The notes beneath the pieces are model-generated. The model saw only the letters and a list, made by a program, of their open reading frames with translations, was not told where the DNA came from and ran no database searches. This document shows positions 2,446 to 33,979 of a DNA stretch of 34,504 bases, one piece after another (within the stretch, counting starts at the first letter, position 1; each line of letters starts with the position of its first letter). The DNA is taken from NCBI GenBank assembly GCA_948471205.1, contig CAOKRT010000016.1, positions 1 to 34,504 on the forward strand. The letters are read 5' to 3'. The position numbers and the translations under genes are program-made. This stretch comes from an uncultured Oscillospiraceae bacterium. Lineage in GTDB: Bacteria > Bacillota > Clostridia > Oscillospirales > Acutalibacteraceae.

Positions 2446-2474
2446 TTGACATATTTATATAAAAATAATAGAAT
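2446..2474 (+). promoter_or_regulatory. Promoter of the ilvB-ilvN-leuC-leuD operon
   Basis: TTGACA (2446-2451) and TAGAAT (2469-2474) are 17 bases apart. The predicted start near 2481 leaves a leader of only about 30 bases, so there is no room for a T-box or leader-peptide attenuator. Regulation, if any, must act at the DNA. A 9-base direct repeat ATAGCAAAT occurs at 2391-2399 and 2432-2440, in the ychF spacer and just upstream of this -35 box. Confidence 0.85.
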
Positions 2475-2511
2475 AGTTATTAAATCTAAATGCATAACAG
2501 GAGGGTTAAAT

Positions 2512-4173
2512 ATGAAATTAAACGGTTCTCAGATCGTTCTGGAGGTTCTTAAAGAGCAGGGCGTAGATACTGTTTTCGGTTATCCCGGCGGAACAATTCT
2601 TAACATTTTTGATGAACTTTATAAATACGGCGATACATTCAATCATGTTCTTACCGCACATGAACAGGGTGCTTCGCACGCCGCGGACGGCTACAGCCGT
2701 GCAACAGGTAAGGTCGGCGTTTGCTTTGCTACATCAGGTCCCGGTTCAACAAATCTTGTAACCGGTATCGCAACGGCATATATGGATTCTATTCCTGTTG
2801 TTGCAATCACCTGTAACTATGCAACATCCGGTCTTGGCAGAGATTCTTTTCAGGAAGTGGATATCACAGGTATAACAATGCCTATAACTAAGCATAACTT
2901 TATGGTTAAGGATGTTCATGACCTTGCGGCAACTCTGCGCCGTGCATTTGAAATTGCGCAAAGCGGAAGAAAAGGTCCTGTTCTGGTTGATATTCCCAAA
3001 GACATTACAGCGGATATCTGTGAATATGAACCGCAGAGCAAAATGGAACCGCTGCCGTATAAAAAGCCGAAGCAGCATTGCTTTGAACGAGCTGTAAAGC
3101 TTATTTCAGAAGCGAAAAAACCGATTATCTACGTTGGCGGCGGTGCTATTTTATCCGATGCAGGTGAAAGCTTAATAAAGTTTGCAGAAAAAATCGATGC
3201 GCCGGTTGTATCTTCCCTTATGGGACTGGGTGCTTTTCCGAACGGTCATGAACTGCATCTCGGCTTAATAGGCATGCATGGTCATTTTGAATGTAATAAG
3301 GCAGCGCACGACTGCGATGTGCTTATCGTTGCCGGTGCGCGTTTTTCTGACCGCGTTGCCGGAAACAGGGCAAAGTTTGCACCTGATGCGGAAATTATAC
3401 ATATTGATATTGATTCGGCAGAAATGGATAAAAATATTGTTTCCAATTATCATTTAAGAGGCACGCTTTCAGAAGTGCTTCCGATGCTTACAGATGCTGT
3501 TGACCAGCTTGATCACAGCGAATGGAAAGCAGAAATCAATACATTTAAACGTCCGTTTAATCAGCTTCAGATTGGTGATTTTGTTAATCCGCAGACGCTT
3601 ATTGAAGCAGTAGACAGAAAGACACCTGATGATGCGATTGTTGTTACGGATGTAGGTCAGCATCAGTTATGGGCAGCACAGTTTTATAAATTTAAACATC
3701 CGCGCACACTTCTGTCTTCAGGCGGTCTCGGCACAATGGGGTATTCGATGGGTGCTGCAATCGGTGCGGCACTCGGATGTCCGGATAAGCGTGTTGTTAT
3801 GTTTACAGGTGACGGCGGCTTCCATATGAATCTGACAGAACTTGCCACAATGGCATCTTACAATGTGCCGGTTGTTATGTTTGTAATGAATAATAAAGTG
3901 CTTGGCATGGTTCGTCAGTGGCAGAAGATTTTTTACGGAAACCGTTTTTCCGATACAGATCCTCACCGTGCAACAGATTTTGTTAAAGTTGCCGAAGCAT
4001 TCGGTGTTAAAGGATTGTATATTAACAGCAATGATGAAATAGATAAAGTGCTTGATGAAGCATTTAAAGTAAACGGCCCTGTGGTTGTTGAATGCAGGAT
4101 TTCTCCTGATTCAAACGTTCTTCCGATGATTCCTCCGGGCGGTTCAGTAGCAGATATTAAAGAGGAGATGTAA
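2512..4173 (+). CDS. ilvB: Acetolactate synthase, large (catalytic) subunit
   Basis: This 553-residue thiamine-diphosphate enzyme condenses two pyruvates, or pyruvate with 2-oxobutyrate, in the first common step of valine/leucine and isoleucine synthesis. Visible features are YPGGTILNIFDEL near residue 25, the catalytic-glutamate segment TAHEQGASHAADGYSRATG near 45-65, a central FAD/nucleotide domain (YVGGGAIL) and the C-terminal cofactor motif GDGGFHMNLTEL followed by NVPVVMFVMNN. The start is ATG 2512 with AGGAGG at 2499-2504; upstream extension would run into the promoter. ilvN follows after two bases, so the complex is co-translated. Biosynthetic rather than catabolic acetolactate synthase is inferred from the ilvN and leuCD neighbours. 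Confidence 0.97.
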   Translation: MKLNGSQIVLEVLKEQGVDTVFGYPGGTILNIFDELYKYGDTFNHVLTAHEQGASHAADGYSRATGKVGVCFATSGPGSTNLVTGIATAYMDSIPVVAITCNYATSGLGRDSFQEVDITGITMPITKHNFMVKDVHDLAATLRRAFEIAQSGRKGPVLVDIPKDITADICEYEPQSKMEPLPYKKPKQHCFERAVKLISEAKKPIIYVGGGAILSDAGESLIKFAEKIDAPVVSSLMGLGAFPNGHELHLGLIGMHGHFECNKAAHDCDVLIVAGARFSDRVAGNRAKFAPDAEIIHIDIDSAEMDKNIVSNYHLRGTLSEVLPMLTDAVDQLDHSEWKAEINTFKRPFNQLQIGDFVNPQTLIEAVDRKTPDDAIVVTDVGQHQLWAAQFYKFKHPRTLLSSGGLGTMGYSMGAAIGAALGCPDKRVVMFTGDGGFHMNLTELATMASYNVPVVMFVMNNKVLGMVRQWQKIFYGNRFSDTDPHRATDFVKVAEAFGVKGLYINSNDEIDKVLDEAFKVNGPVVVECRISPDSNVLPMIPPGGSVADIKEEM

Positions 4174-4175
4174 TT

Positions 4176-4688
4176 ATGGCAGAGGAAAAACTTGTATTGT
4201 CTGTTCTTGTTGATAACGTATACGGCGTGCTTCAGCGCGTTGCAAGCCTTTTTTCAAGAAGAGGATATAATATCAGTTCCTTAACTGTTAGTGAAACAGA
4301 AGATCCTTTATTTTCAAGAATGACAATTGAAACTTATACAGAGCCTGAAAATTTCAGACAGATTAAGGCGCAGCTTTTAAAGCTTGAAATTGTAAAAAAG
4401 GTTGCTGAACTTACTGATGAAAAATCTGTTTCCAGCGAACTCCTTCTTGTTAAGGTAAAAGCAGCAGGTCTTGAAACAAAAAATCAGCTTCTTTCCTACA
4501 ATGTCCGCTACGGTGCACGTGTGCTTGATGTATCAAAAACAACCGTAACATTTGAATTTACAGGCGAAGGCTCTGCTATTGATATGTTTATAGAAGAGCT
4601 TGAACAGAAATTCGGTATTGTTGAGCTTGCCAGAACAGGTGTAACCTCGCTTGAAAGAGGCGAAGGCTCATTTAATGACGATATTTAA
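4176..4688 (+). CDS. ilvN: Acetolactate synthase, small (regulatory) subunit
   Basis: The protein is 170 residues. The N-terminal ACT domain begins LVLSVLVDNVYGVLQRVASLF and includes the RRGYNISSLTVSETEDP segment typical of IlvN/IlvH. The second half is the C-terminal regulatory domain, with AKVLDVS-like (ARVLDVSKTTVTFEFTG) and the ending RTGVTSLERG. It stabilises IlvB and usually gives feedback inhibition by valine. The gene starts 2 bases after the ilvB stop, with GAGGAG inside the end of ilvB as ribosome binding site, so translational coupling is likely. The length matches the short IlvH type. Confidence 0.97.
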   Translation: MAEEKLVLSVLVDNVYGVLQRVASLFSRRGYNISSLTVSETEDPLFSRMTIETYTEPENFRQIKAQLLKLEIVKKVAELTDEKSVSSELLLVKVKAAGLETKNQLLSYNVRYGARVLDVSKTTVTFEFTGEGSAIDMFIEELEQKFGIVELARTGVTSLERGEGSFNDDI

Positions 4689-4715
4689 TTTTAATTAGGA
4701 AATCAGGTGAATAAA

Positions 4716-5975
4716 ATGGGTATGACAATGACTCAGAAAATACTGGCGGCGCATGCAGGTCTGGATTCTGTTGAAGCGGGTCAGTTAATAGAAGCCAATT
4801 TGGATATGGTTCTCGGAAACGACGTAACCTCTCCGGTGGCTATAAATGAAATGAACAAATTCGGAAAAACTTCTGTTTTTGACAAAACAAGAATTTCTCT
4901 TGTTATGGATCATTTTACTCCGAACAAGGATATTCAGTCTGCCGAAAACTGCAGACAGGTGCGTGAATTTGCAAAAAAGAACGATATTCTTCATTATTAT
5001 GATGTCGGAAATATGGGAATAGAGCATGCGCTTCTTCCTGAAAAAGGCATTGTAACCTGCGGTGACTGCATTATAGGTGCAGACAGCCATACCTGTACAT
5101 ACGGTGCTCTTGGCGCTTTTTCAACGGGTGTAGGTTCAACAGATATGGCCGCCGGAATGATTTCCGGAAAGGCATGGTTCAAAGTGCCGAGTGCTATTAA
5201 AGTTGTTATAACAGGAGAAAAGGCACCTTTTATCAGCGGCAAAGATGTTATTCTTCATATTATCGGTGAAATCGGTGTAGACGGCGCACTTTATAAGAGT
5301 CTTGAATTCACAGGAAACGGCATTAAAAATCTTTCTATGGATGACCGCCTTTGCATTTCAAATATGGCTATTGAATGCGGCGCTAAAAACGGAATTTTCC
5401 CTGTTGACGATGTTACAATTGCCTATGTCAACGGCAGGTCTTTAAGGGAATATAAGGTTTATGAAGCAGATGCCGATGCTGTTTATGACAGCACAATCAC
5501 CGTTGATTTAAGCACGCTTCGTCCTACTGTTGCATTTCCGCATCTTCCGGAAAATACAAAAACAATTGATGAAGTACCTGAAATTAAAATCGACCAGGTT
5601 GTTATCGGTTCATGTACAAACGGCCGCATGGAGGATATGCGTACAGCGGCCGCTATCCTTAAAGGCAAAAAGGTTGCAGACGGTGTTCGGGTTATTGTTA
5701 TTCCTGCAACACAGAACATATATATGAACTGTATAAAAGAAGGTCTTGCAGAAATATTTGTTGAAGCGGGCGCAATTGTTTCCACTCCAACCTGCGGTCC
5801 TTGTCTTGGCGGACATATGGGCATTCTTGCCAAGGGAGAAAAGGCGGTTTCCACTTCAAACCGTAACTTTGTAGGCAGAATGGGTCATACGGAATCGGAA
5901 ATTTATCTTGCATCTCCTGCAGTGGCAGCAGCTTCGGCTGTGAAGGGATTCATTGCAGACCCTGCAAAAATATAG
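4716..5975 (+). CDS. leuC: 3-isopropylmalate dehydratase, large subunit (archaeal/clostridial type)
   Basis: This 419-residue aconitase-superfamily subunit isomerises 2- to 3-isopropylmalate in leucine synthesis. The 4Fe-4S ligands are visible as GSCTNGR and [13 protein letters not shown], and the substrate-loop segment [23 protein letters not shown] is intact. About 420 residues and the opening [15 protein letters not shown] place it in the shorter homoaconitase/IPMI group of archaea and clostridia, not the 466-residue enterobacterial LeuC. The ATG at 4716 has AGGTGA five bases upstream; GTG 4707 overlaps that site and is unlikely. The partner leuD follows after 10 bases. A homoaconitase or citramalate-pathway activity cannot be excluded, but ilvBN upstream favours leucine. 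Confidence 0.94.
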
Positions 5976-5985
5976 GAGGTTCATT

Positions 5986-6465
5986 ATGAACGCAAAAGGT
6001 AAAGTACATAAATTCGGAAATAATATTGATACAGATGTTATTATTCCTGCAAGATATCTGAATAAAAGTGACGAGGCATGGCTTGCTTCCCACTGTATGG
6101 AAGATATTGACAAGGAATTTGTTAATAATGTAAAAACCGGCGATATTATGGTTGCCGAGGCTAATTTCGGCTGCGGCTCTTCACGTGAGCATGCGCCGAT
6201 AGCCATTAAAGCAAGCGGAATATCCTGTGTTATTGCATCTACATTTGCACGTATATTTTACAGAAATGCAATAAATATCGGACTTGCAATTCTTGAATGC
6301 GACGAAGCTGCAAGGGATATAAACAACGGTGATGAGGTAGAGGTAGACTTTGACAGCGGTTTAATTACAAACTGCACAACGGGAAAAAGCTATCAGGCAC
6401 AGCCTTTTCCGCCGTTTATTCAGGATATTATTTCAAAAGGCGGACTTTTGAAATCTATAGGCTGA
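5986..6465 (+). CDS. leuD: 3-isopropylmalate dehydratase, small subunit
   Basis: The protein is 159 residues, the compact LeuD of the archaeal/clostridial type. It opens [20 protein letters not shown] and contains [16 protein letters not shown] and [15 protein letters not shown], the swivel-domain motifs that complete the LeuC active site. The ATG at 5986 has AGGAGGT at 5974-5980; the upstream in-frame extension overlapping leuC is not used. leuA and leuB are absent from the window, so the rest of the pathway is encoded elsewhere. Confidence 0.95.
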
Positions 6466-26509: not shown

Positions 26510-26538
26510 TTGACAAATCAGAAAACTTGTATTATAAT
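26510..26538 (+). promoter_or_regulatory. Promoter of the T-box-controlled oxidoreductase operon
   Basis: Perfect TTGACA (26510-26515) and perfect TATAAT (26533-26538) are 17 bases apart. Transcription should start near 26545. A fully consensus promoter fits an operon controlled afterwards by attenuation. Confidence 0.92.
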
Positions 26539-26544
26539 TTTTTC

Positions 26545-26808
26545 AAATTCATATTTAAACATATTGACGAGAACAAAAATCGGTTTTAATCTTTTTTGCA
26601 GAGAGCAGGCGGCCGGTGTAAGCCTGCAGAAGAAAAACTGTAATATCCTCTCCGAGTGGCTGTGCTGAAAATCAGTAGGTGCAGACGGCAGCCTCCGTTA
26701 TAACGGCAGTGAATGTTTGTTCATGTAAGTGCGTCTTTTCAGACGAATAAGAGTGGTACCACGGTATAATTATATCGCCTCTTTGCCTTAGGGCAAAGAG
26801 GTGTTTTT
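26545..26808 (+). promoter_or_regulatory. T-box riboswitch (tRNA-sensing leader)
   Basis: The region holds the T-box hallmarks in order: AGAGAGC (26600-26606); an apical hairpin GCAGGC/GCCTGC carrying GGTGTAA (26615-26621); CCGAG then GCTGAAAATCAGTAGG (AGTAGG at 26674-26679) of stem II; CCGTTATAACGG of stem IIA/B; a short stem III (CGTCT/AGACG); and the T-box sequence AATAAGAGTGGTACCACGG (26746-26764). An antiterminator (AAGAG 26749-26753 with CTCTT 26779-26783) competes with the terminator at 26778-26808. TGGT implies a tRNA with A73. The specifier is uncertain: pairing of 26581-26587 with 26634-26640 and of 26569-26572 with 26649-26652 makes AUC (Ile) at 26645-26647 my best guess. The canonical AGUA and GAA loop elements are not obvious. 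Confidence 0.92.
26778..26808 (+). terminator. T-box regulatory terminator
   Basis: CCTCTTTGCC (26778-26787) pairs perfectly with GGCAAAGAGG (26792-26801) around TTAG and is followed by TGTTTTT. Its 5' strand is shared with the antiterminator. Confidence 0.93.
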
Positions 26809-26840
26809 GTTATTTTTTTCTTATTGAAAGGAGAATACAT

Positions 26841-27413
26841 ATGAAAAATTGTGTTGAAATTCGCTGGCATGGCAGGGGCGGTCAGGGTGCAAAAACCGCA
26901 GCATTGCTTCTTGCCGATGTTGCTTTTAAAACAGGCAGCTATGTGCAGGGCTTTCCTGAATACGGTCCTGAGCGTATGGGTGCGCCGATTACGGCCTATA
27001 ACAGAATCAGCCCGAATGAAATCAGGGTTCATTCCAATATTTATGCGCCGGATTTTGTAGTTGTGGTTGATGAAAGCCTGCTGGATACAATTCATGTTAC
27101 CGAAGGGCTTAATCCCGACGGCGCAATTCTTATTAATACGTCCAAATCAAAGGAAGATATTGAAAAGCATCTGAACGGCTATAAAGGCAGAGTGTATACA
27201 ATAGATGCAAGAAAAGTTTCTGTTGCATGCTTGGGTAAATATTTTCCGAATACGCCTATGCTTGCAGGAATTGTAAAGGTTTCCGGTGTTATGCAGTGGG
27301 ACAGTTTTCTGTCTGAAATGGAAGCGTCCTTTAAACATAAATTCTCTTCAAAGCCTGAAGTTATCGAGGGTAATATGAATGCTCTTAAAATGGCTTTTGA
27401 AGAGGTAAAATAG
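26841..27413 (+). CDS. porC: 2-oxoacid:ferredoxin oxidoreductase, gamma subunit
   Basis: The protein is 190 residues, matching the gamma subunit (about 190) of four-subunit pyruvate or 2-oxoisovalerate:ferredoxin oxidoreductases. The opening VEIRWHGRGGQGAKTAALLLADVA is the family signature for CoA/domain III, followed by GFPEYGPERMGAPITAYNRIS. It is soluble. The ATG at 26841 has AAAGGAGAA upstream, 32 bases after the T-box terminator. It is the first gene of a gamma-delta-alpha-beta operon. Pyruvate is the commonest substrate of this subunit type, but the tRNA-responsive leader leaves a branched-chain or 2-oxobutyrate substrate open. The gene symbol is by family analogy. Confidence 0.9.
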   Translation: MKNCVEIRWHGRGGQGAKTAALLLADVAFKTGSYVQGFPEYGPERMGAPITAYNRISPNEIRVHSNIYAPDFVVVVDESLLDTIHVTEGLNPDGAILINTSKSKEDIEKHLNGYKGRVYTIDARKVSVACLGKYFPNTPMLAGIVKVSGVMQWDSFLSEMEASFKHKFSSKPEVIEGNMNALKMAFEEVK

Positions 27414-27424
27414 GAGGTTAAGAT

Positions 27425-27727
27425 ATGAAATCAGATGTTAACAAGCTTAATTTGAACTGTAAATGGCAGGATTTAACAGAGGGTATGCAGATTTACGGCG
27501 AAATGACCTCTAAGGAATTCAATACGGGTGAATGGACCTCTGTTAAGCCGGAACTTCATGAGGATTTATGCGTGCACTGCCTTATGTGCATTCCTGTTTG
27601 CCCGGACAGCGTTATTCCCGTTGTTAACGGCAAGCGCGGTGCGTTTGATTATGACCACTGCAAGGGCTGCGGCATTTGCGTTAAAGCATGTCACACCGGC
27701 GCAATTACAATGAAGGGGGTAAAATAA
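27425..27727 (+). CDS. porD: 2-oxoacid:ferredoxin oxidoreductase, delta subunit (2x[4Fe-4S] ferredoxin)
   Basis: The protein is 100 residues with two ferredoxin clusters: CVHCLMCIPVCPDS and CKGCGICVKACHTGAI. The second cluster ends Cys-His instead of the usual Cys-Pro, a modest variant. Size and the N-terminal extension (ending EFNTGEWTSVKPELHEDL) match the delta subunit that carries electrons from the beta subunit to free ferredoxin. The ATG at 27425 has AGGAGGT upstream. Gaps to its neighbours are 11 and 2 bases. Confidence 0.92.
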   Translation: MKSDVNKLNLNCKWQDLTEGMQIYGEMTSKEFNTGEWTSVKPELHEDLCVHCLMCIPVCPDSVIPVVNGKRGAFDYDHCKGCGICVKACHTGAITMKGVK

Positions 27728-27729
27728 CT

Positions 27730-28911
27730 ATGTCAAGAAGAGATCGTTTAAGCGGCAATGAAGCTGTTTCAGAAGCGCTTCGCCAAATTAATCCGGATGT
27801 TATGGCGGCTTTTCCGATTACACCTTCCACTGAAATTCCGCAGTACTTTTCAAAACTGGTTGCAAACGGACAGGTTGATTCCGAATTTATTCCCGTTGAA
27901 TCCGAGCATTCGGCTATGTCTGCCATTATCGGTGCACAGGCAGCCGGTGCGCGTTCTGTTACGGCAACCTCATCTGCAGGTATGGCTCTTATGTGGGAAG
28001 AACTTTATCTTGCCGCATCAAACAGGCTTCCTTGTGTGCTTACACTTGTAAACAGAGCATTGTCAGGTCCTATCAATATTAACTGTGATCACAGTGATTC
28101 CATGGGTGCCAGAGATTCGGGCTGGATTCAGATTTATGCCGAAAACAATCAGGAGGTTTATGATAATCTTGTTATGGCTTACAGAATAGGCGAGCATAAG
28201 GACGTTATGCTTCCTGTTATGATTTGTCAGGACGGATTCATTACTTCACATGCTGTTGAAAATATAAATCTTCTTGAAGATAAAGAGGTTAAGGATTTTG
28301 TTGGTGAATACGAACCCGAAAATTATCTTCTGAATCCGGAATGTCCTATGGCGGTTGGACCTTACAGCGTTACAAATTATTATTTTGAAGCAAAACGTGC
28401 ACAGGCAGAAGCGCTAAAAAATGCAAAACAGGTTGTACTGGATGTTGCGGAGGAATATGCTGAAATCAGCGGCAGAAAGTATGGACTTTTTGAAGAATAT
28501 AAAATGGAAGATGCCGAAGAGGCCGTTGTAATCATAGGTTCTGCGGCAGGCACGGCAAAAGATGCTGTTGATGCGTTAAGAGAACAGGGTAAAAAAGTTG
28601 GTCTTATAAAAATCCGTCTTTTCCGTCCGTTTCCCGCATGCGAAATTGCAGAAGCGCTTAAAAATGTGAAAGCAGTTGCTTTAATGGACCGTACAGAAAG
28701 CTATAATGACTGCTGCGGTCCTCTCGGTGCGGAAGTAACAGCAGCTCTTTACAGAGCAAAGGCAAACTGTCTTGCCGTAAATTATGTTTACGGTCTTGGC
28801 GGCAGAGATGTTAGAGTAGAAGATATGATTCATGTGTATAATGAACTTGAAAAAATTGCCGCACAGGGCAAGGTTGAAAATCCGTATCGCTATATGGGCG
28901 TAAGAGAATAA
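27730..28911 (+). CDS. porA: 2-oxoacid:ferredoxin oxidoreductase, alpha subunit
   Basis: The protein is 393 residues, the size of the alpha subunit of Thermotoga-type four-subunit pyruvate:ferredoxin oxidoreductase. It opens RLSGNEAVSEALRQINPDVMAAFPITPSTEIP, with FIPVESEHSAMSAIIGAQAAGARSVTATSSAGMALM and NRALSGPININCDHSDSMGARDSGWIQIYAENNQE, segments shared with pyruvate/oxoisovalerate enzymes. The C-terminal part is the transketolase-C-like domain (VVIIGSAAGTAKDAVDAL, LFRPFP). The ATG at 27730 has AAGGGGGT upstream; an earlier in-frame start at 27688 overlaps porD and lacks a site. The substrate is inferred, not shown. Confidence 0.9.
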   Translation: MSRRDRLSGNEAVSEALRQINPDVMAAFPITPSTEIPQYFSKLVANGQVDSEFIPVESEHSAMSAIIGAQAAGARSVTATSSAGMALMWEELYLAASNRLPCVLTLVNRALSGPININCDHSDSMGARDSGWIQIYAENNQEVYDNLVMAYRIGEHKDVMLPVMICQDGFITSHAVENINLLEDKEVKDFVGEYEPENYLLNPECPMAVGPYSVTNYYFEAKRAQAEALKNAKQVVLDVAEEYAEISGRKYGLFEEYKMEDAEEAVVIIGSAAGTAKDAVDALREQGKKVGLIKIRLFRPFPACEIAEALKNVKAVALMDRTESYNDCCGPLGAEVTAALYRAKANCLAVNYVYGLGGRDVRVEDMIHVYNELEKIAAQGKVENPYRYMGVRE

Positions 28912-28925
28912 GGAGGTGCTTTTCA

Positions 28926-29867
28926 ATGTATAATTTTAAAGAGTTTGTCGGCAGAGAAGAGCGTCTTGCCGGCGGGCACAGAATGTGTGCCGGCTGCGGC
29001 GGAACAATTGCCGTAAGAAATGTGCTTAAAGCAATCAGACCGGGTGATAAGGCAGTTGTGGGCAATGCCACAGGATGTCTTGAGGTTTCTTCGTTTATGT
29101 ATCCTTTTACCGCTTATAAGGACAGTTATATTCATAATGCTTTTGAAAATGCAGGCGCAACAATGAGCGGGGTAGAGGGTGCCTATAATGTTTTAAAACG
29201 AAAAGGCAAGCTTGATGACACTTTCAAGTTTATTACTTTCGGCGGTGACGGCGGCACATATGATATAGGTTTTCAGTCACTTTCAGGTGCTATGGAACGC
29301 GGTCATGATATGGTTTATGTGTGCTATGACAATGGTGCGTATATGAATACCGGTATTCAGCGTTCATCAGCTACTCCGATGTTTGCAGATACAACAACCA
29401 CGCCGATAGGCTTTGAATCAAACGGTAAGCCGCAGTACAGAAAGGATTTATCTGCAATTATTGCCGAGCATAAAGTGCCGTATGTTGCACAAACAACATT
29501 TTTACATAATTTCCGTGATTTGCATGTAAAATCCGAAAAAGCAATTTATACAAAGGGCGCTGCTTTTCTGAATATTATGGCTCCTTGTCCGAGGGGATGG
29601 AGATATAATACATGGGATATTATGGAAATATGCCGTCTTGCAGTTGAAACTCGCTACTGGCCTTTGTTTGAGGTAATTGACGGCAGATGGATATTGAATT
29701 ATGAGCCGAGAAATTATGTGCCTGTTGAAGAATGGCTTGCGAAACAGGGCAGATTTAAGCATATGTTTAAATCCGGCAATGAATGGATGATTGAAGCTTT
29801 TCAGAAAGAAGTGGACCGCCGCTGGTCTGAACTTCTTAACCGCTGTGAAGAAGTACGCGGAGCATAA
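28926..29867 (+). CDS. porB: 2-oxoacid:ferredoxin oxidoreductase, beta subunit (thiamine-diphosphate binding)
   Basis: This 313-residue protein carries the active-site cofactors. CAGCGG (residues 18-23) and the later GNATGCLEVSS fit 4Fe-4S cysteines, with a further Cys in the C-terminal part. The ThDP/Mg motif is GGDGGTYDIGFQSLSGAMERGHD followed by YVCYDNGAYMNTGIQRS. It acts in the cytoplasm with porC, porD and porA, interconverting 2-oxoacid + CoA and acyl-CoA + CO2, reversibly with ferredoxin. The ATG at 28926 has AAGGAGGTG upstream. A strong terminator follows, closing the operon. Confidence 0.92.
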   Translation: MYNFKEFVGREERLAGGHRMCAGCGGTIAVRNVLKAIRPGDKAVVGNATGCLEVSSFMYPFTAYKDSYIHNAFENAGATMSGVEGAYNVLKRKGKLDDTFKFITFGGDGGTYDIGFQSLSGAMERGHDMVYVCYDNGAYMNTGIQRSSATPMFADTTTTPIGFESNGKPQYRKDLSAIIAEHKVPYVAQTTFLHNFRDLHVKSEKAIYTKGAAFLNIMAPCPRGWRYNTWDIMEICRLAVETRYWPLFEVIDGRWILNYEPRNYVPVEEWLAKQGRFKHMFKSGNEWMIEAFQKEVDRRWSELLNRCEEVRGA

Positions 29868-29937: not shown

Positions 29938-29943
29938 AAATAT

Positions 29944-30088
29944 GCCACACAGTTTAATATCACTCAAAGCAGGCATACTATGGTAAAAACGTATGCTTTG
30001 ATTTGTCATTTCCTGCTGGGGGTGAACTGTGTGGCAACAGAAGTCGGGCTGCGTTTTTCGGTGCGTAGCTTAGGCTGCGTACTTTTTT
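29944..30088 (+). promoter_or_regulatory. Structured leader, candidate riboswitch of unassigned class
   Basis: A long-range P1 stem joins GCCACACAGTT (29944-29954) to AACTGTGTGGC (30025-30035), 11 perfect pairs. Inside, AGCAGG (29968-29973) pairs with CCTGCT (30012-30017) and CATAC (29974-29978) with GTATG (29991-29995). Downstream is a terminator (30061-30088). GGCTGCGT occurs twice (30047-30054 and 30073-30080): the second copy forms the terminator, while the first can pair with CGTAGC (30064-30069) to prevent it. Aptamer, switch, terminator and ribosome binding site lie in the order of a transcriptional riboswitch. I could not match it to a class I remember. Confidence 0.65.
30061..30088 (+). 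terminator. Leader terminator before the ABC exporter
   Basis: GTGCGTAGC (30061-30069) pairs with GCTGCGTAC (30074-30082, two G-U/U-G) around TTAG and is followed by six T. It lies only a few bases before the GGAGGG ribosome binding site of the next gene, so it must be regulated or leaky. Confidence 0.85.
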
Positions 30089-30104
30089 ATTTGGAGGGAA
30101 TTTT

Positions 30105-32937: not shown

Positions 32938-33642
32938 ATGAAAACAAATAAGGCGCAGACAATTAAATTTGCTTTGAAAAAATCATTGCCCGTTCTTTTC
33001 GGCTATCTGTTTCTCGGTTCTGCTTTCGGCATTATGCTTTATGAAGCAGGATATAATGTTTTATGGGCAATTTTAATTTCCGTTGTGGTTTATGCCGGTT
33101 CAGGGCAGTTTCTGCTGGTATCGCTTTTAAGCTCGGCCGCATCTCTGCCAACGGTTGCTTTTATGACGCTGTTTGTTAATTCCCGCCATATATTCTACGG
33201 TTTGTCTTATGTTGAAACGTTTAAAAAGGGCGGCTGGCGCTATCCTTTTATGATTTTTTCTTTAACGGATGAAACGTATTCCGTAAACACATCTATACAT
33301 ACAGTTCCCGAAAATGTTGATGAAGTGCGTGCCAGATATTTTATCGGGCTTTTTGATCATCTTTACTGGATTTTGGGTTCTGTTATCGGTTCTCTTGCGG
33401 GTCAGCTTATTCCGATAGATTTTACCGGTGTCGATTTTTCCATGACAGCGCTGTTTGTTGTTATTTATATTGATCAGATGCTGGAAGCAAAAAATAAATT
33501 TACAGGAATTATCGGAATTGTATGTGCAGTTTTGTGCCTTGTTATTTTCGGTGCGGATAATTTTCTTTTGCCTTCGCTTATTCTTACCGTTGCACTGCTT
33601 TCGGTAATGAAGCCGCTTATTCAGAAAAAGGAGGTAAACTGA
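32938..33642 (+). CDS. azlC: AzlC-family branched-chain amino acid exporter, large subunit
   Basis: The protein is 234 residues with about six membrane helices. The family-defining segments are LPVLFGYLFLGSAFGIMLYEAGYN, VYAGSGQFLLVSLL and VNSRHIFYGLSYVE, then LTDETYSV. AzlC works with the small AzlD protein to export leucine, isoleucine or valine and their toxic analogues such as azaleucine. The start ATG 32938 has AGAGGT upstream. azlD follows after 1 base. The branched-chain amino acid link matches ilvBN-leuCD in the same window, but the two are separate operons. Confidence 0.94.
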   Translation: MKTNKAQTIKFALKKSLPVLFGYLFLGSAFGIMLYEAGYNVLWAILISVVVYAGSGQFLLVSLLSSAASLPTVAFMTLFVNSRHIFYGLSYVETFKKGGWRYPFMIFSLTDETYSVNTSIHTVPENVDEVRARYFIGLFDHLYWILGSVIGSLAGQLIPIDFTGVDFSMTALFVVIYIDQMLEAKNKFTGIIGIVCAVLCLVIFGADNFLLPSLILTVALLSVMKPLIQKKEVN

Positions 33643-33643
33643 T

Positions 33644-33979
33644 ATGCCTCTTTCAAACACACAGGTTATTATTATGATTGCGCTTGCGGCGTTATGCACA
33701 TTTGCCACAAGAGTTGTTCCGTTTGTACTGTTCGGCGGAAAAAAGGGCGTTCCCAAATTTATTAAATATCTTGGTGATATTTTGCCCACGGCGATAATTG
33801 GCGTGCTTATCATATACTGCCTTTCTGATTTTACCAAAGGTGATATCAATATTATTGCACCAAAGCTGATTGGTGTTGCCGTAACAGCGGCAATGCATAT
33901 TTGGAAACACAATACGTTGCTGAGCATTGCGGCAGGTACAATAAGTTATATGCTTTTAATTCATTTTGTATTTGTTTAG
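33644..33979 (+). CDS. azlD: AzlD-family branched-chain amino acid exporter, small subunit
   Basis: This 111-residue membrane protein has about four helices. It opens VIIMIALAALCTFATRVVPFVLFGGKK, followed by PKFIKYLGDILPTAIIGVLIIYCL, both typical of AzlD. It is translated one base after azlC from ATG 33644, with AGGAGGT upstream, to make the two-component exporter. The C-terminal helix (LLSIAAGTISYMLLIHFVFV) ends at the stop. A terminator-like hairpin follows. Confidence 0.94.
   Translation: MPLSNTQVIIMIALAALCTFATRVVPFVLFGGKKGVPKFIKYLGDILPTAIIGVLIIYCLSDFTKGDINIIAPKLIGVAVTAAMHIWKHNTLLSIAAGTISYMLLIHFVFV

Follow-up and report, generated by a model that had tools for sequence, protein, structure and literature searches.

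The window analysed here is a stretch of 34,504 nucleotides (nt) from an uncultured Oscillospiraceae bacterium (contig CAOKRT010000016.1 of assembly GCA_948471205.1) and contains a compact operon for a four-subunit 2-oxoacid:ferredoxin oxidoreductase (KOR), in the order gamma-delta-alpha-beta, preceded by a T-box leader RNA with an isoleucine specifier. The features are listed in Table 1. The full domain set of a four-subunit KOR was identified (POR, Fer4, POR_N/PFOR_II and TPP), in agreement with an earlier note on this DNA which had recognised a four-subunit oxidoreductase with the gamma subunit in first place.

Table 1. Features of the KOR locus and its surroundings in the window; ORF, open reading frame; ABC, ATP-binding cassette.
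Feature	Position	Strand	Basis or remark
Sigma-70 type promoter, TTGACA-17 nt-TATAAT	26510..26538	+	consensus match 12/12
T-box leader RNA (Stem I, Stem II/III region, antiterminator)	26555..26785	+	RF00230, 116.6 bits
Stem I distal part, motifs AGAGAGC and GGTGTAA	26600..26621	+	sequence, aligned to RF00230
Motif AGAGAGC	26600..26606		by reading
Motif GGTGTAA	26615..26621		by reading
Specifier triplet AUC (isoleucine)	26645..26647	+	calibrated register; invariant columns A91 T92 C93
Motif AGTAGG	26674..26679		by reading
Antiterminator with T-box bulge	26750..26785	+	RF00230 alignment
Motif AGTGGTACCACGG	26752..26764		by reading
Bulge UGGU	26754..26757		within antiterminator
Intrinsic terminator, exclusive with antiterminator	26776..26803	+	12-pair stem and U-run
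KOR operon	26841..29867		order gamma-delta-alpha-beta
KOR gamma subunit	26841..27413	+	TIGR02175, 214 bits (cut-off 81.1); PF01558
KOR delta subunit, ferredoxin-like with 4Fe-4S motifs	27425..27727	+	TIGR02179, 87 bits (cut-off 60.05)
KOR alpha subunit, loop GPININCDHSDSMGARD	27730..28911	+	PF01855, PF17147; nearest NCBIfam archaeal PorA, below cut-off
KOR beta subunit, thiamine diphosphate binding	28926..29867	+	PF02775; nearest PorB, below cut-off
ilvB-ilvN (ilvBN)	2446..4688	+
ilvB-ilvN-leuC	2446..5975	+
ilvB-ilvN-leuC and next ORF, probably leuD	2446..6465	+
Structured element of about 145 nt	29938..30092	+	upstream of ABC transporter genes; -56.5 kcal/mol, z -5.0
azlC-azlD, branched-chain amino acid transport	32938..33979	+	3 kb downstream of KOR operon

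The covariance model RF00230 aligned with the leader over 219 of its 219 positions (E 2.2e-25, above the curated cut-off of 93 bits), so that the leader is a T-box from end to end. Stem I, whose absence from such a match the earlier note had named as a refutation, is part of it, and all the motifs named there were located. A covariance model built from the KOR leaders themselves (R1) gave 230.1 bits for the window, which is among its training rows. The bulge fits the UGGN rule and is complementary to the tRNA 3' end ACCA. The terminator and the antiterminator use one common arm, the 5' arm of the terminator, and are thus mutually exclusive, as had been proposed; the terminator is a strong one, its stretch having a folding energy of -25.2 kcal/mol (z -4.7). 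In an alignment of 28 KOR leaders, fitted to the structure, two-sided changes occur in 45 of 50 pairs and 95.1% of the cells pair, against 71.3% in shuffles. Judged by its sequence, the leader is a canonical class I, transcription-attenuating T-box.

The specifier was read in a register calibrated on the bacterium's own genome (G000; 1.85 Mb, 98.9% complete), which holds eight T-box matches at E 1e-3, the KOR leader included. For the remaining seven, the downstream gene agrees with the triplet found one nucleotide ahead of the lower strand of Stem I: valS GUA, pheS UUC, cysE UGC, leuA CUC, trpE UGG, trpB UGG and thrS ACC (gene names were assigned by reading ORFs, and leuA agrees once the model alignment is shifted by two bases). 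At this position the KOR leader has AUC, a register in line with the TBDB rule, given in a passage of PMC7778990, by which the specifier is counted from the end of its bulge as positions 2-4. AUC was identified in all 36 distinct complete KOR leaders (the window, L013 and 34 named loci; in L076 by reading), and its three columns are invariant in 24 of 24 leaders of alignment A1 and 28 of 28 of A3, two overlapping sets. The flanking bases vary (U, A or C before; C or A after), and the registers UAU (tyrosine) and UCC (serine) were rejected on this ground. On this comparison the specifier of the KOR leader is isoleucine, the reading that the earlier note had preferred.

The link between this T-box and KOR is recurrent. 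The loci compared were the best 80 of 536 in a gamma-subunit scan of genome contigs, and leaders were surveyed stepwise: a motif scan gave 24 hits, 22 of them accepted, and R1, built from these 22, the window and L013, added 12 complete leaders, including L043 and L051 (motif-scan hits first set aside, which are AUC T-boxes by both Rfam and R1). A Stem I model (R2), run on 51 loci of which 46 were without a known leader, found no further T-box upstream of KOR; both models were built from KOR leaders and their alignments are biased to that register. A complete T-box is present in 34 of the 80 named loci and a partial one in L053, cut by the contig end (R1 13.8 bits, E 0.05). By motif scan, R1 and R2 none was found in the remaining 45, which include L035 and L100, where the DNA upstream is just 10 and 79 nt long, too little to judge. 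The gamma tree comprises 83 rows (the 80 named loci, the window, L013 and L014), where 37 are T-box-bearing, one of them truncated; nine label changes are needed and at least seven are forced by supported branches. The window's group carries the leader in 22 of 23 rows, the exception being L028, whose gamma subunit is the most similar to that of the window (92%) and which lacks a T-box, with what looks like the 3' arm of the terminator as the sole remnant upstream of position 6001. Since L028 adjoins the window on the tree and only this apparent arm remains, the absence reads as a loss. The other T-box groups of the tree fit gains or survivors alike, and missed leaders would add label changes.

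The most divergent leaders (L065, L070, L083 and L098) keep AUC, with 3' halves that differ and a non-canonical T-box bulge; neither L065 nor L083 was called by Rfam at its cut-off. Apart from a conserved TAGATGGTT, these four show no recognisable canonical T-box motif. Isoleucine T-boxes of Lachnospiraceae type, before KOR and ileS, carry GGTGGT and are missing the canonical ACC after UGGN (L072, L076, L078, L081, L095, L104, L204, L208 and L210).

T-boxes elsewhere were surveyed in nine KOR genomes (88 hits, E 1e-6) and in the own genome, a search that can miss divergent T-boxes. Specifiers were read by hand for 90 of the 96 loci, L158 being ambiguous and not AUC; the six left out, where the R2 alignment failed (L141, L181, L188, L195, L198 and L203), are all from outside the window clade. 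In L005, L143, L157, L161, L163, L180 and L164 the letters A-T-C fall over non-adjacent columns, and the contiguous triplets, CUC in six and UGC in one, were counted. The six genomes of the window clade (G000, G021, G149, G205, G210 and G219) have one AUC T-box each, that of KOR, among seven to nine (48 in total). Three genomes are of Lachnospiraceae type: G235 with AUC T-boxes before KOR, ileS and a CstA-like carrier, G247 with AUC T-boxes before KOR and ileS, and G250 with one before KOR only. In the family member G152 no T-box was found upstream of KOR (gamma 68% identical to that of the window) and the AUC T-boxes precede ilvB-ilvN-ilvA and ileS (gene names by reading). One genome thus has an isoleucine T-box on the classical pathway, and others have it on KOR. 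The T-box before the CstA-like carrier (L197, by ORF reading, in the genome of L081, Faecalicatena contorta) hints at an uptake of isoleucine-containing peptides or of a precursor.

The earlier note had kept as its alternative that a tRNA-synthetase gene was lost and its T-box became attached to the wrong operon, that is, a stray synthetase leader left before KOR by rearrangement. The combination that it had named as telling against a functional link was found in part, as 45 of 80 KOR loci are without a leader found and three of the nine relatives surveyed (G152, G235 and G247) have an AUC T-box ahead of ileS; however, G235 and G247 carry the AUC T-box before KOR as well as before ileS. The pairing moreover recurs and is kept across divergent Clostridia, with AUC invariant in the 36 complete leaders and strong covariation, and we regard a stray leader as highly improbable.

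None of the KOR subunits reaches an NCBIfam equivalog of defined substrate, the nearest being the archaeal pyruvate synthase models (bits/cut-off: PorA_Arch 497.1/550, PorB 324.3/405, PorC 190.1/270, PorD 77.4/120); the 2-ketoisovalerate models were also below cut-off (NF006232 alpha 344.3/646, NF008818 beta 281.2/405). KOR has the subunit set and domains of archaeal-type pyruvate synthase PorCDAB but differs from it in falling below those cut-offs and in the alpha loop. The 2-ketoisovalerate ferredoxin oxidoreductase (VOR) belongs to the same superfamily, and the KOR alpha subunit matches it less well (344 bits) than the pyruvate type (497 bits). Among solved structures the closest in sequence is 9bt4, named pyruvate:ferredoxin oxidoreductase (PFOR), where the loop is PINIWNDHQD instead of the PININCDHSD of KOR. 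Asn occupies the loop position in 73 of the 76 motif-bearing KOR alpha subunits (81 looked at) and His in three; the residue aligned with this Asn is Trp in 9bt4 and Phe in 6cin. The Asn loop is common to T-box (35) and non-T-box (38) members of the 73, and the family may well have, therefore, one substrate. An ordinary pyruvate synthase or oxidase, with the isoleucine T-box merely tuning the pyruvate supply, would agree with this closeness to pyruvate synthases; nevertheless the pyruvate cut-offs are reached by none of the subunits, the need for pyruvate is not isoleucine-specific, and the genome encodes a second POR-domain protein, a frame of 1185 codons and by size a single-chain PFOR, so that the main role in pyruvate conversion need not fall to KOR. 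We consider this explanation improbable.

The genome contains the classical isoleucine genes: ilvA (485.7 bits, adjoining a RidA-like gene), ilvBN, ilvC and ilvD. KOR would thus be a second supply and not a gap filler. The ilvB-ilvN-leuC operon is located in the window 20 kb upstream of KOR, where the Rfam search did not find a T-box; leuA, followed by a leuB-like gene, is behind the leucine T-box of the genome. A replacement of missing ilvA or cimA by KOR was considered and is unsupported. In a sample of 29 distinct genomes out of the 37 T-box-bearing ones (G206 is the same assembly as G149), ilvA is above cut-off in 28 (not in G240), ilvD was found in 27 (not in G203 and G209) and cimA is above cut-off in none; ilvC was found in 29 of 30 T-box-bearing genomes (not in G209).

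As a whole, the locus is best explained, and with good confidence, as an isoleucine-gated reductive carboxylation by KOR, where the sensing of tRNA-Ile, the reaction direction and the substrate are what we infer. When isoleucine is short, uncharged tRNA-Ile would accumulate and its anticodon would pair with AUC in the specifier loop, while its ACCA end would pair with UGGU in the antiterminator bulge, so that the terminator would not form and the KOR operon would be transcribed; with ample isoleucine transcription would end at about 26803. Working in the reductive direction, KOR would convert an acyl-coenzyme A (acyl-CoA), reduced ferredoxin and CO2 into a 2-oxoacid on the way to isoleucine. 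The role in amino acid synthesis that the earlier note had deduced from the T-box has gained support from the comparison, with AUC constant in 36 of 36 leaders. An oxidative, Stickland-type degradation of branched-chain 2-oxoacids by KOR is more improbable still than the pyruvate reading. Dethiosulfatibacter aminovorans has a KOR relative (L090), and porA of Clostridium sporogenes, a member of this enzyme class, is reportedly linked to branched-chain fatty acid formation, but a T-box turns on at amino acid shortage, which is the wrong sign for catabolism.

Under reductive carboxylation, the most likely substrate, at roughly even chances, is propionyl-CoA, which would give 2-oxobutyrate and enter IlvBN-IlvC-IlvD, all encoded in the genome. 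We favour this C3 compound over 2-methylbutyryl-CoA because KOR is closest to the pyruvate synthases and because 2-oxobutyrate serves, among the branched-chain amino acids, only isoleucine. From 2-methylbutyryl-CoA (C5) the enzyme would form 3-methyl-2-oxopentanoate directly, a salvage of branched-chain fatty acids into isoleucine that would need a transaminase alone. This possibility, which we hold to be real though doubtful, would be uniquely isoleucine-directed if the enzyme is selective; the titles of T-box-bearing L039, L046, L045 and L102 name rumen, reticulum, ileum or faeces, and the Asn of the alpha loop (73 of 76), against the Trp or Phe of pyruvate enzymes, would fit a different pocket. 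On the other hand, the nearest models and structure are those of pyruvate synthases, which points to a small substrate, and a branched-chain enzyme would usually serve valine and leucine too. Both routes end in isoleucine.

Several observations weigh against an isoleucine-gated carboxylation with a C3 substrate. By lowest-energy folding the antiterminator stretch is no stabler than its shuffles (z -0.5) and Stem I is unremarkable (z -0.1); since energy alone gives no support, both elements rest on the covariance model and the comparison. The leader was not found in the 45 loci mentioned above, and the presence of the classical genes means that KOR is not required to complete the pathway. The Asn loop argues against using the pocket as an argument for the C3 substrate. 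No acyl-CoA-activating gene was recognised beside KOR, and no linked acyl-CoA ligase or transaminase among its recurrent neighbours (by eye, in flanks of up to 6 kb); the commonest neighbour, subunits and opposite frames aside, is groEL, in 11 of 81 loci by reading. The own genome has two AMP-binding proteins (acyl-CoA ligase family), and for one of them a partial frame gave no NCBIfam match at 1e-60. Finally, the cognate tRNA-Ile(GAU), expected with A73, was not found in the draft assembly with a search pattern based on a consensus of this tRNA, which identified only a tRNA with anticodon CAU. The gene for tRNA-Ile(GAU) often sits within rRNA operons, and these may be absent from the draft assembly.

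The proposed reaction, carboxylation of propionyl-CoA for isoleucine, would be alike in chemistry and purpose to that of 2-oxobutyrate synthase (EC 1.2.7.2). This enzyme is known as an activity: passages of PMC7476758 cite work in which anaerobes carboxylate propionyl-CoA to 2-ketobutyrate with ferredoxin, and add that pyruvate formate-lyase may account for part of the propionate route. Formation of isoleucine from 2-methylbutyrate by rumen anaerobes is cited in a passage of PMC2812497, and the reports on both carboxylations toward isoleucine cited in these two sources go back to 1969. A literature search under the names of 2-oxobutyrate synthase turned up only apparently unrelated work. The leader resembles known isoleucine T-boxes (RF00230; ileS and ilv type) in its Stem I motifs, AUC, UGGU and antiterminator/terminator exclusion, and differs in its target, where a 2-oxoacid:ferredoxin oxidoreductase operon takes the place of ileS, ilv genes or a transporter. 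This pairing was not found in the literature searched, and passages of PMC2494555, PMC7778990, PMC3766115, PMC12452182 and PMC5171806 do not mention it; the T-box surveys of 2008 and 2009 (10.1261/rna.819308, 10.1128/MMBR.00026-08), RegPrecise and TBDB, outside this scope, may list it. Neither the RNA, a standard T-box, nor the enzyme, from a known superfamily, is new in kind; the regulatory target is, as far as searched.

The recurrence of an isoleucine-reading tag on one KOR subfamily in many gut Clostridia suggests that the enzyme contributes to a synthesis of isoleucine out of short-chain acids, for which the responsible genes are still under dispute, and provides a concrete candidate gene and amino acid to test. 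We tentatively propose, on sequence grounds, that the subfamily with the alpha loop GPININ[C/A]DHSD could be the acyl-CoA carboxylase that gut anaerobes dedicate to isoleucine, namely a 2-oxobutyrate synthase, and that in the window clade isoleucine control could have been placed there rather than on threonine deaminase or acetolactate synthase. If so, the bacteria of this clade would, when starved, rely mainly on scavenged propionate (or 2-methylbutyrate) for making their isoleucine, and short-chain acids of the gut or rumen would be tied to bacterial isoleucine supply.

Two further features are found downstream of the operon. Like the azlC-azlD genes of the window, azlC-like ORFs are present downstream of KOR in L026 and L031. 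The structured element matches no Rfam family at its cut-off and has DNA matches in 66 of 300 family genomes, many of them to the last 43 bases or so only (a hairpin and U-run). Thirteen long copies share invariant CATAC and AACTG, with two-sided changes in 7 of 34 predicted pairs. For 11 further long copies the next gene, by reading, is an ABC ATPase in four and a different one in the others, L242 having none listed. Several copies have a TATAAT-like box just upstream, and the element has the look of an undescribed gene for a small RNA, or of a leader.

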